From NCBI RefSeq assembly GCF_000193375.1, contig NC_015315.1, positions 566,622 through 630,621 on the forward strand: DNA of 64,000 bases, written 5' to 3'. Position numbers and translations under genes: made by a program. Source of the stretch: Thermoproteus uzoniensis 768-20. Lineage in GTDB: Archaea; Thermoproteota; Thermoprotei; Thermoproteales; Thermoproteaceae. Below the pieces are notes generated by a model. That model was not told the origin of the DNA, made no database searches, and was given only the letters and a program-made list of their open reading frames with translations. Below, in pieces: positions 41,657-62,052 of the stretch. The first letter of the stretch is position 1. Every line of letters begins with the position of its first letter.

Positions 41657-41893
41657 GTGAGCGAGGTTATCTCGATAAGGGTTAGAAGAGAGTTGAAAAG
41701 GGCGTTGGAGGAGCTGGGTATAGACTACGCCGAGGAGGTCAGGAGGTTTCTGGAGCAACTTGTGGCTAGAGAGCGGAGGCGGAGGGCTCTGGAGAGGGCG
41801 CGGTCGCTGAGGGAAGCTGTCGAGAGGGAGGCGGGCGCGTTGCCGCATGTCGCGGAGCTGATAAGGGAGGATAGAGATGGAGATAGCCGCTGA
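41657..41893 (+). CDS. vapB: VapB-type antitoxin
   Basis: A 78-residue protein: [19 protein letters not shown] is a ribbon-helix-helix-like DNA-binding start as in archaeal VapB/CopG antitoxins. The second half ([20 protein letters not shown]) is the helical toxin-binding tail. It overlaps the PIN toxin gene by 17 nt. GTG 41657 was chosen from the TATA spacing. It should bind and neutralise the adjacent VapC. Confidence 0.82.
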
Positions 41894-42275
41894 TGCCTCG
41901 GCTATCGCCGCCCTCTTCTTGCCGGAGGACAAAAGCGCCGTCATTGAGAAGCTGTTCGGGCAGGCTGAGGCTATACATACGCTGGATCTAGCCGCCTACG
42001 AGGTGCTGAACGCAGTGTGGAAATACGCCAGGAGAGGCGTTATAGGCAGGAGGCTAGCCGAGGAGATTGAGACGGAGCTTCTGGATCTGCTCAGGACCTT
42101 GTACATCCACCGCTACGAGGAGGTGCTTCCCGACGCCCTCAAGTTAGCCTTAGAAAAAGACGTCACTGTATACGACGCCGCATATGTGGCTCTTGCCCAG
42201 AAGCTGGGCGCGCCTCTGTTGACGTTAGACAGGAGACTGGCCGAGGAGTTCCCCCGCCTGGCCTACATGCCCTAG
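41877..42275 (+). CDS. vapC: VapC PIN-domain toxin ribonuclease
   Basis: A 132-residue PIN domain. Acidic metal-binding residues: Asp in [14 protein letters not shown], Glu in LAAYEVLNAVWKYAR, Asp in KDVTVYDAAYVALAQ, and Asp in PLLTLDRRLAEEF. The pattern is complete, so the nuclease is probably active on RNA (tRNA or mRNA). Translated together with vapB through a 17-nt overlap. Confidence 0.92.
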   Translation: MEIAADASAIAALFLPEDKSAVIEKLFGQAEAIHTLDLAAYEVLNAVWKYARRGVIGRRLAEEIETELLDLLRTLYIHRYEEVLPDALKLALEKDVTVYDAAYVALAQKLGAPLLTLDRRLAEEFPRLAYMP

Positions 42276-59087: not shown

Positions 59088-59390
59088 GTGAAGTTCGCCG
59101 TAGCTTCGGCCATCTTCTCGCTGGCGGCTCTGGCGTTGGCCCTAGCTGTCAAGGGCCTGGCGGCGCCTCTAGCCCTCCCAGTCTACGTCTCGCTCGCCGC
59201 AATAGACGTAGCCCTCTTCGTGCTGGGCCTACGGGACGCCGCGGCGGCGCTGGACATAGCGGCTGGCGAGTGGGAGGCGGCCGAGCTGAAGTCTGTTAGG
59301 GCTCTTTTGGTGGTCCTGTTCTTCATGTCGATAGTGGTCCTGGGCTATCTGATATTGGCTCACGTAGCGCCGTCGGTCTTTGCGGCGTAG
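59088..59390 (+). CDS. Small three-helix membrane protein
   Basis: A 100-residue protein with three hydrophobic segments: VASAIFSLAALALALAVKGL, ALPVYVSLAAIDVALFVLGL and RALLVVLFFMSIVVLGYLIL. A charged turn (GEWEAAELKS) separates the second and third. No family is recognised. Start is GTG 59088 from TATA spacing; an upstream frame would run through the divergent gene. Confidence 0.6.
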   Translation: MKFAVASAIFSLAALALALAVKGLAAPLALPVYVSLAAIDVALFVLGLRDAAAALDIAAGEWEAAELKSVRALLVVLFFMSIVVLGYLILAHVAPSVFAA

Positions 59391-59450
59391 CTCATGTCGG
59401 CTTATTGCCTAGACCCGCGCCGTGCTCAACAGAATCGCGTGTATTTTTAG

Positions 59451-60119
59451 CTAGCCGTTGGTCGATTGCGTAGCCAAGCTCTTTATCCACTGTATAAGCT
59501 CCCGATACCTCATAGTCTTTATTAATCCGCCGCATACGCAATCGTTACACGATAATTCCTCTTCCACAAAGGCGGCGAGTTTTTTGTCTTCTGTTAGAAA
59601 CAGTAGGACCCCCTTGGTTATACCGGTTGCCGTCCTCCTAGGCACAGTGGCGAGTAGGTCGTATGAGTACAGCAGAGAGGCCAGCACCTCTAGGTCGTCT
59701 CTAGGATATCCTCCGAGGGACAGTAGTGTATTCATCACTTTTTCGCTCCAACACACCCTACGTGTCTCTCTACTCTCCAGAGCGCGCCTCTGCCTAGCGA
59801 GGGCTCCGTCATCCTCCACGATCCTAATGTGGCGCGATTGGGCGAGGTCGGAATAGGCCGTCAGGGCTATGTTGAACATGGACTCCACATCGAGATGCAG
59901 CCAGCCGTGCCTCGCCCGGTCCACCGATCTCAATATATTCATTAACGCACCTGGGAGCTCCCTGTCTACGGCCTTGTCGATATAGATAACCAAGCCTTGC
60001 TCCATCGCTATCTCCACCAGCGGCTTAGGCCTATTCGAGACACGCGTCGTTGCAACTACGTAGATTATCCGCGCCAAGACGCTCGTATCGGCGAAGAGGT
60101 GTACGTTCTTAGACACCAC
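59451..60119 (-). CDS. PIN-like nuclease-fold protein
   Basis: A 222-residue protein with PIN-type acidic motifs: LFADTSVLARIIYVV near residue 10, a possible second acidic residue in DKAVDRELPGAL, DDLEVLASLLYSYDLL, and LLFLTEDKKLAAFVEEEL at the C-terminal third. It is about 90 residues longer than VapC, with an inserted helical middle (RHIRIVEDDGALARQRRALE) and a cysteine cluster CNDCVC at about residue 192. Its start lies inside the end of the preceding 187-residue gene (11-nt overlap), so the two are co-translated. The partner is unlike known antitoxins. Confidence 0.65.
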   Translation of the reverse strand: MVSKNVHLFADTSVLARIIYVVATTRVSNRPKPLVEIAMEQGLVIYIDKAVDRELPGALMNILRSVDRARHGWLHLDVESMFNIALTAYSDLAQSRHIRIVEDDGALARQRRALESRETRRVCWSEKVMNTLLSLGGYPRDDLEVLASLLYSYDLLATVPRRTATGITKGVLLFLTEDKKLAAFVEEELSCNDCVCGGLIKTMRYRELIQWIKSLATQSTNG

Positions 60120-60672
60120 TAAAGAGATCGGGGAATTCCTCGACCTCGTCCGTATATTTTGTTCTTCTCACGGCCTCCTTCAACTTACGCCGGAAGTCTA
60201 GATACGCGTCTAGATCTACGTTGAACGCCAAGGCCTTCGCGTCGCCCTCCAGGCCGAGCATTTTAAGGGCCAGCTCCGCGAGCTCCTCCTCGGACTTACG
60301 GCCGTAGGCCTCCACCACCTTCACGGCCCTCTCCGCGAGCTCGCCGAGCCCCATGCGTCTAAGCGCCGCCGCGCTCTCCGCCGCGGCATCTCCCGGTCTT
60401 TTGACGTAATACGAATCGCCTATCCTAACCACGTCTATCCCGCACCTCTCCGCCAGTCTGTCTATAGGTATAAACGGCCCCTTTAGATATATGGTGAAGC
60501 GCTCCGGCAGTCTTACTGTGGGCTCGCCCGCTCCGTAAAGTGTGAGGAACAACAACTTAGACACCGCCTCGGCCGAGAGACCTCTGCGGTAGAGCTCTAG
60601 GTACCTCCCGACGATTAACCTGAGCAGATGCCTAGACACCTCACAGCCTACTTGTACAACTAACATAGGCAA
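60109..60672 (-). CDS. Unknown partner of PIN-like protein
   Basis: A 187-residue protein with no recognised family. The N-terminal part is VVQVGCEVSRHLLRLIVGRY then LELYRRGLSAEAVSKLLFLT, apparently helical. A central strand pair follows (FTIYLKGPFIPIDRLAERC, DVVRIGDSYYVKRPGDAA), then two helices ending in DEVEEFPDLFSGV. It reads first in a two-gene unit with the PIN-like gene, as an antitoxin would. A TATA-like ttttaaac lies about 20 nt before its ATG. Confidence 0.6.
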   Translation of the reverse strand: MPMLVVQVGCEVSRHLLRLIVGRYLELYRRGLSAEAVSKLLFLTLYGAGEPTVRLPERFTIYLKGPFIPIDRLAERCGIDVVRIGDSYYVKRPGDAAAESAAALRRMGLGELAERAVKVVEAYGRKSEEELAELALKMLGLEGDAKALAFNVDLDAYLDFRRKLKEAVRRTKYTDEVEEFPDLFSGV

Positions 60673-60780
60673 ATATACACGACAGGTTTAAAACTTCTTT
60701 CTTTGACTTTTAGATAAGGATTTCTGGCTCTTCGAACTAGGCGGATGCGCTACCGCCTTATGCCTCTGCGACGCGGCCGC
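60673..60780. other. Intergenic hairpin region
   Basis: Contains the inverted repeat AGGCGG-ATGCGCTA-CCGCCT at about 60740-60759 (6-bp arms), between two minus-strand genes. It may be an RNA hairpin at the end of the coiled-coil operon. No tRNA fits it. Confidence 0.35.
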
Positions 60781-62052
60781 TTAAACCTTCTTGCCCTCCA
60801 GCTCCTCCAACCGCCTTCTGCACTCGTCCAGCTTGTTCTTTATCTCGGCCACGGCCGCCTCCCTCAACAGAAGCGATCTGTAGAAGGACAAGATCTCCCT
60901 CTCCTGCTCCAACAGCCTCTTCTGCCACTGCGCCAGACGCGACTCCTCCTCTATGAGCCTTCTGGCGAAAGGCGCCAGCCCGTCCATCAGCTCCATCTCC
61001 TTCCTCCTGACGTAGTCCTCTATCTTGGAGTACTCGGCCTCCTTGTTCTTGAGCGCCTCCTCTATGTTCTTGTACTTGGCCACCAGCTCCTCCAGCTCCT
61101 TCTTCTTGGCCTCTATGTCCTGCTCGATCCTCTCGAGCTCGGCCCTCCTCCTCTCAAGCTCCTGGAGCTTGGCCTCAGCCTCCTTGCCCTTGACCTCCAG
61201 CTCCCTCACTCTCGCCTCCCTCTGCTCCAGCTCAAGCCTCTTGGCCTCCAGCTCTTGTTGCATCTTCTTGAGGTCCAGGTCGCGCCTCATGATCTCCTCC
61301 TCGCGGGCCTTCAGCGCCTTCTCGCGCTCCTCCAGCTCCTGCAACATAGAGGCGTATCTGCCCAACATATTCCTGAGGTCGTCGAAGAGCGGTTGGGCAG
61401 ACGTGGAGAGCGCCGCCAGCTTCCTCAAGTCCTGCGCGAGGGCCTCCAGCTCGCCCTCCCTCTTCTTGAGCGCCTCCTCCCTAGTCCTTATCTCGGCCTC
61501 CTTATAGGCCAACTGCTTCAGCTTGTTCTCGTAGTCCTGCAACCTCGCCGTGAGGTCCTTGGAGAGCTCCAGCATAGACGACGCTATGGCTCTGATCTGG
61601 CCCGTCGCGTTGTTTATAGCCTCTAAGGTCGAGGCGGCCTCGCCCAGCTTGGCTAGGACCTCGTCTATGGAGCCCAGCGACTTTGTGAGGGAGTCGGCGG
61701 CGGACGTCACTTGGGCCGCCGCTACCTTTAACTGGTTCATGGTGTCCAGCAACTCCTTCTGGCGCGACGTTAGGTCGTTCATGCCCCTCACTATCTCGTT
61801 GAGCCTAGCGACGCTGTCGACGAGATCCTTCACGCTTCTCGAAATAACGTTGGAAAGGCCGTCGACGGATTTCTTGATGTCCAGAAGGCTCCCCCTTAAA
61901 TCGGGCGGTATAGAGCCTCTGAGCTCGTTCACGCTGGCGTTGAGGGAGCTCAACGCGGCGTCTATCCTCGCTATTGCGTCCTCCAATCGCTTCGCGTCCT
62001 CCCTCCTAAACACGAAGGGCCCCCTCGACGGCTTTATATTGTTTACGGCCAC
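60781..62052 (-). CDS. Long coiled-coil protein
   Basis: A 423-residue protein made almost wholly of heptad repeats. Residues about 50-180 have a softer repeat pattern (SVNELRGSIPPDLRGSLLD) and residues about 185-410 are continuous Glu/Lys/Leu/Arg coiled coil (EEREKALKAREEEIMRRDLD). The C-terminus ends LDECRRRLEELEGKKV. No globular domain, P-loop or membrane helix is visible, so it is not SMC or Rad50. It follows a smaller coiled-coil gene at 28 nt spacing. A structural or scaffold role is likely. Start GTG 62052. Confidence 0.75.
   Translation of the reverse strand: MAVNNIKPSRGPFVFRREDAKRLEDAIARIDAALSSLNASVNELRGSIPPDLRGSLLDIKKSVDGLSNVISRSVKDLVDSVARLNEIVRGMNDLTSRQKELLDTMNQLKVAAAQVTSAADSLTKSLGSIDEVLAKLGEAASTLEAINNATGQIRAIASSMLELSKDLTARLQDYENKLKQLAYKEAEIRTREEALKKREGELEALAQDLRKLAALSTSAQPLFDDLRNMLGRYASMLQELEEREKALKAREEEIMRRDLDLKKMQQELEAKRLELEQREARVRELEVKGKEAEAKLQELERRRAELERIEQDIEAKKKELEELVAKYKNIEEALKNKEAEYSKIEDYVRRKEMELMDGLAPFARRLIEEESRLAQWQKRLLEQEREILSFYRSLLLREAAVAEIKNKLDECRRRLEELEGKKV

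Follow-up and report, generated by a model that had tools for sequence, protein, structure and literature searches.

A predicted mobile toxin-antitoxin pair of Thermoproteales combines a divergent Panacea-like antitoxin with an enlarged PIN-domain protein

Two overlapping genes and their surroundings

Do two overlapping genes in the genome of Thermoproteus uzoniensis 768-20 (one contig, 1,936,063 bp) form a toxin-antitoxin (TA) pair, and if so, of which kind? The genes lie in a stretch of 64,000 nucleotides, referred to here as the window, and the original prediction described them as ORFs of 187 and 222 residues that overlap by 11 nt, an arrangement that we confirmed exactly. The locus has the following features, with the basis for each in brackets:

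59451..60119, minus strand: oversized PIN-fold protein, predicted RNase toxin, 222 aa (ORF, conserved residues, AF2 model, Foldseek)
60109..60666, minus strand: putative divergent Panacea/SocA-type antitoxin, 185 aa (ORF, alignment, hhalign, bridging homologue)
60109..60119, minus strand: overlap of the antitoxin 3' end and the toxin 5' end, 11 nt (ORFs)
60687..60693, minus strand: TATA-box-like TTTTAAA, 20 nt upstream of the antitoxin ATG (sequence)
60781..62052, minus strand: coiled-coil core gene next to the pair, found in nearly all genomes of the order (genome comparison)
59088..59390, plus strand: flanking gene on the other side, convergent, for a conserved small membrane protein (genome comparison)
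59409..60790, no strand assigned: inserted block, approximate extent, missing from the syntenic site of four congeners (synteny)

The antitoxin gene can start at TTG 60672, which yields the 187 residues first described (60109-60672), or at ATG 60666, which yields 185; comparison with relatives supports the ATG as the likelier start. The toxin starts with a GTG at 60119, with another GTG at 60116, and the 11-nt overlap probably couples translation of the two proteins. As the TTTTAAA element is only 20 nt ahead of the antitoxin ATG, its spacing suggests a leaderless archaeal transcript. A scan for bacterial sigma-70 promoters and terminators found nothing, as expected for an archaeal host.

We regard both ORFs as real genes because they have homologues in other genera, low dN/dS and many invariant residues. 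Among intact copies, dN/dS is 0.18 for the toxin and 0.18-0.20 for the antitoxin, and these copies evolve under purifying selection. That the two genes are degraded, non-functional remnants kept by chance would fit the several relatives that are pseudogenes, but the window copies are intact, and neither a dN/dS near 0.2 among intact copies nor invariant catalytic residues agrees with it; we give this reading practically no weight.

An enlarged PIN-type protein with four conserved cysteines

To characterize the larger protein, we aligned it with six full-length relatives that share 39-46% identity with it. D11, E54, D142 and D178 are invariant in these relatives and form an acidic quartet in PIN order, in agreement with the four PIN-type motifs of the original prediction, which had named loss of the aspartates as an observation that would tell against it. 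Also invariant are D48 and D154 and four cysteines, C123, C191, C194 and C196. The key residues map as follows:

60087..60089, minus strand: D11, PIN motif 1 (invariant in the alignment)
59958..59960, minus strand: E54, PIN motif 2 (invariant in six close relatives)
59751..59753, minus strand: C123 (RRVCW), the invariant fourth cysteine (alignment)
59694..59696, minus strand: D142, PIN motif 3 (invariant)
59586..59588, minus strand: D178, PIN motif 4, TxD (invariant)
59532..59549, minus strand: C191-x2-C194-x-C196 cluster (CNDCVC), between D178 and the last strand (invariant in the close family)

E54 is not kept in a remote relative from G354, and the CNDCVC-type cluster is missing from that protein too.

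The toxin matched no curated family over its cut-off in libraries including Pfam, NCBIfam, PADLOC and PHROGs, and a search of PDB sequences with toxin and antitoxin gave no usable match. Four of the six toxin-family members resemble PIN_3 (PF13470) in a weak N-terminal match, but the match stays under the cut-off and the window protein itself has none. Since an hhalign comparison of the toxin family with the host's own canonical VapC proteins was not significant beyond motif 1, the PIN assignment rests on the motifs, the sub-threshold PIN_3 matches and the structural model described next.

We built an AF2 model of the toxin on a six-row alignment. The model (pLDDT 77) follows the element order of PIN folds and has additional helices at ~78-134, ahead of the motif-3 helix. 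The model and the alignment thus bear out the helical insertion and the CNDCVC cluster that had been noted earlier; C123 and the CxxCxC cluster both fall in low-confidence regions of the model. The best PDB matches in Foldseek are archaeal PIN/VapC proteins (1y82, 5h4h VapC4, 2fe1 PAE0151 and 1v8p PAE2754). For 1y82 and 5h4h, the probability is 1.00, but E-values are 0.016-0.02 (TM ~0.57 on target), and no match of the model reaches E<0.001. Together, motifs, PIN_3 matches and model identify the larger protein as a predicted PIN nuclease. With its four-cysteine site it would stand out among PIN enzymes, and what the cysteines do is directly testable.

The original prediction had also allowed for an RNA-processing nuclease with a co-factor, that is, a PIN enzyme of the NOB1, FAP1 or RNase P-like kind with a dedicated partner and a housekeeping role. 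Structures of proteinaceous RNase P (PRORP) occur among the lower Foldseek matches, and NOB1-like PIN proteins are known to carry cysteine clusters, both of which speak for such an enzyme; the distribution of the pair, described below, speaks against it.

A divergent Panacea domain in the partner protein

Direct searches of Pfam, NCBIfam, PADLOC and PHROGs with the antitoxin gave no useful match, and PF13274 matched neither the window antitoxin nor its close family. Because the motif KLLFLxLY...FxIYLKGPF is reminiscent of Panacea/DUF4065, we tested this relation with hhalign, comparing a profile of eight antitoxin-family members with a profile of fourteen PF13274-selected archaeal proteins. 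The two profiles aligned with a score of 62.4 (prob 96), while 60 column shuffles gave a maximum of 20.1 and a reversed profile gave 16.1. The antitoxin-family profile also found a bridging homologue in G369 (E=4.6e-4), which itself matches PF13274 at E=1.4e-4 with 23.1 bits, under the cut-off of 25.7. When extended with remote members, the antitoxin profile recovers PF13274 proteins over most of the length, for example at E=2e-15 in G079 and 2e-13 in G012.

A Panacea fold consists of compact helices alpha1-7 and a beta1-beta2 hairpin. The AF2 model of the antitoxin is of poor quality (pLDDT 68). Its helices surround a small beta hairpin and follow a compatible order, but a Foldseek search with the model gave no fold match; this fold search was uninformative, so the Panacea assignment is drawn solely from sequence profiles. 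The family also has a conserved acidic tail at the C terminus, with (E/V)E(L/E)(Y/F)PDLF as its last residues (...DEVEEFPDLF in the window copy); this tail is of low confidence in the model. By profile-profile comparison with controls, we assign the antitoxin to a divergent Panacea/SocA domain and conclude that, judged by its sequence, it is not a VapB-type antitoxin. The original prediction had called this partner a protein of unknown family and proposed profile searches of both proteins: at curated cut-offs neither finds a match and the description stands, whereas profile-profile comparison links the antitoxin to Panacea.

In PanAT systems (Panacea/DUF4065/SocA; Kurata 2022, PMC8832971; Ernits 2023, PMC10440598), the Panacea partners given in the main texts are MqsR, Fic/Doc, toxSAS, PemK/MazF-like, ParE, membrane and other toxins. 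The 2022 main text (PMC8832971) does not name a PIN-domain partner, and in passages of the main text of PMC10440598, where PIN toxins are displayed beside a named antitoxin, that antitoxin is an RHH protein. Relative to these main texts a Panacea-PIN partnership is new and not described, and the supplementary datasets possibly hold a PIN-PanA cluster. The pair studied here is like PanAT in placing a Panacea-type antitoxin beside a variable toxin, in its standalone Panacea architecture and in its patchy distribution. It differs in that the antitoxin is far under the PF13274 cut-off, that the toxin is of the PIN type, absent from the PanA partners named in those main texts, and that the acidic C-terminal tail is specific to this antitoxin family. 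The type VI system SocAB is similar in that SocA has a Panacea domain. In that system SocB acts by blocking replication and is cleared through proteolysis; in the pair studied here, by contrast, the partner is a predicted PIN nuclease, and nothing indicates a protease-adaptor role.

In VapBC modules, the PIN toxin has ~130 aa and its antitoxin is a short VapB protein. The pair shares with them the PIN fold, the acidic motifs and the antitoxin-first order, all of which could suit a canonical VapBC with an unusual VapB. However, the toxin has 222 aa, a helical insertion and four cysteines, whereas the canonical VapCs of the host genome are 113-145 aa long and mostly follow short VapB-type ORFs; the antitoxin is Panacea-like and has no AbrB, RHH or Phd DNA-binding Pfam match; and the toxin has no significant profile match to the host VapCs past the first motif. 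We therefore rejected a canonical VapBC, on toxin size and the Panacea-like partner, as extremely improbable, and the earlier statement that neither size nor partner fits VapBC holds. The window itself also contains a canonical VapC-type PIN gene, at 41889-42245 on the plus strand (PF01850, 48.9 bits; ORF of 132 aa; G000:C1:608510-608866).

With a probability of about 0.8, we interpret the pair as a mobile type II TA module made up of a divergent Panacea antitoxin and an enlarged PIN endoribonuclease toxin, for which toxicity and rescue are predicted. The claim of a TA-like pair with an oversized PIN protein is thus well supported, by conserved acidic residues and by the patchy distribution of the pair. 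The suggestion of a new TA class is too strong because the antitoxin falls in the known Panacea/SocA superfamily, and the best reading is a new toxin-antitoxin combination within a known kind. In the mechanism that we propose, the first gene would encode a standalone divergent Panacea (SocA-like) antitoxin. The second gene, whose translation is probably coupled to that of the first, would encode a metal-dependent endoribonuclease of the enlarged PIN type. The antitoxin would bind this nuclease and keep it inactive. Contact would probably be made by both the Panacea core and the acidic C-terminal tail, the latter because terminal extensions of Panacea antitoxins neutralise toxins in examples given in PMC10440598. 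Loss or inactivation of the antitoxin would then free the PIN enzyme, which, by analogy with VapC, may cleave cellular RNA, tRNA or rRNA, so that growth stops.

PIN is the commonest archaeal toxin fold, and the pair would add PIN nucleases to the partners of the 'hyperpromiscuous' Panacea antitoxin. Here the Panacea domain has diverged beyond the reach of standard family searches, and further archaeal TA modules may have been overlooked for this reason.

Spread and decay of the pair, and related pairs

We found the pair in nine to ten of the 41 genomes of the order (11 loci in nine genomes, with two copies each in G007 and G016). In every locus the two genes are adjacent with the antitoxin first, the conserved pairing of Panacea gene and toxin gene that is expected of PanAT systems. 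The pair is missing from four of five congeners. At the syntenic site of G001, G002, G003 and G005, the distance between the two flanking core genes is 0-100 bp, compared with ~1.4 kb in the window, and G005 has its own pair at another site, 41-45% identical to that of the window. GC3 is 65% in the toxin and 69% in the antitoxin, versus 85% in three neighbour genes.

Window positions 59452/59473-60842/60947 match a block in G016 and G007, which belong to another genus, at 86% nucleotide identity. Part of this block is a 3' fragment, with a broken frame, of the coiled-coil gene that neighbours the pair in the window, while both genomes keep their own coiled-coil orthologue at another site (43% amino acid identity); another neighbour in the window is 69% identical between the two genera. 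Most simply, the pair first inserted next to the coiled-coil gene and was then passed on from a Thermoproteus-like donor. The original prediction had proposed a survey of whether the pair moves between genomes and had named universality and essentiality in Thermoproteales as evidence against a TA pair; empty sites, aberrant GC3 and 86%-identical blocks across genera identify a horizontally acquired mobile module, which is neither universal nor essential.

Intact pairs occur in G000 (the window genome), G005, G021, G023 and one G016 copy. At four loci (both G007 copies, G028 and G038) the toxin is broken and the antitoxin open. In G038 (L035 2681-5276, Vulcanisaeta sp. JCM 14467), an insertion of the IS200/605 type bearing a TnpB-like gene splits the toxin and leaves the antitoxin intact. 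Both genes are broken in the second G016 copy, and the opposite pattern, an antitoxin frameshift with an open toxin, is seen only in G039, a draft assembly, where the frameshift coincides with seven consecutive G. Decay appears biased towards toxin loss with the antitoxin kept, a pattern that is suggestive only because the numbers are small. With its empty sites, a hitch-hiking piece of a neighbour gene and toxin decay, the pair is a clear example of how TA modules spread from one archaeal genus to another.

These observations fit poorly with the RNA-processing alternative. Rather than being near-universal in the order, as a housekeeping role demands, the pair is missing from most congeners and relatives, the insertion site is empty in congeners, and the genes have moved between genera and decayed in several copies. 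We rejected a housekeeping nuclease on its patchiness and regard it as very improbable.

Patchy and mobile gene content is also compatible with a defence module, in which the PIN nuclease would be antiviral, Panacea would serve as the sensor and abortive infection would be the main job. Panacea has been proposed as a sensor and some TAs guard against phage, as stated in the main text of PMC10440598, and some copies of the pair adjoin MNT/HEPN-like genes. Against this, neither protein has a PADLOC match, viral contigs contained no relative of either, and no viral trigger is known. We consider a dedicated defence role unlikely; mechanistically it would still be a TA, and it overlaps the type II TA reading rather than excluding it.

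An MNT-type nucleotidyltransferase gene lies just upstream of the pair at L010 and L016 (G016, G007) and at L006 (G039), and at L010 and L016 there are HEPN-like genes as well, which suggests clustering with other TA genes.

Beyond this family, remote Panacea-like genes precede other PIN-like proteins in G354 (224 aa, without the cysteine cluster) and G020 (185 aa). Two further candidate Panacea-PIN pairs are at L180 5-1512 (G030) and L185 1518-2829 (G020), where a Panacea-like gene overlaps a gene for a PIN-like protein (274 and 220 aa, respectively) with an inserted CxxC...CxxC zinc-ribbon-like stretch. From motif inspection and sub-threshold matches, the remote proteins appear PIN-like, less firmly than the window family. 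On G020:C3 (L067, L079 and L080), one Panacea-like and PIN-like pair is found near both contig ends with equal scores, as a result of duplication or of a repeat in the assembly.

Pairs of Panacea-like and enlarged cysteine-bearing PIN proteins could represent an unrecognised TA branch in Thermoproteota. Its cysteine site, made up of C123 and CxxCxC in the window protein and of the zinc-ribbon-like insertions in the G020 and G030 pairs, might bind a metal or an Fe-S cluster and so make the activity of the toxin, or its choice of substrate, depend on redox or metal state, an idea that we hold to be doubtful.

Other Thermoproteota Panacea genes precede unrelated partners, as expected for a promiscuous antitoxin. 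At L093, L096, L099, L100, L101, L111 and L186, all in related genomes, Panacea proteins are followed by a conserved protein of ~160-200 aa that carries an (I/L)LE(V/I)K(L/V)H motif and may be a nuclease of the PD-(D/E)XK type. At L091, L110 and L176, Panacea proteins of ~250 aa are followed by a cysteine-containing protein of ~280 aa, without family assignment, that starts LxxLYLDxxYxYAPxxRV.
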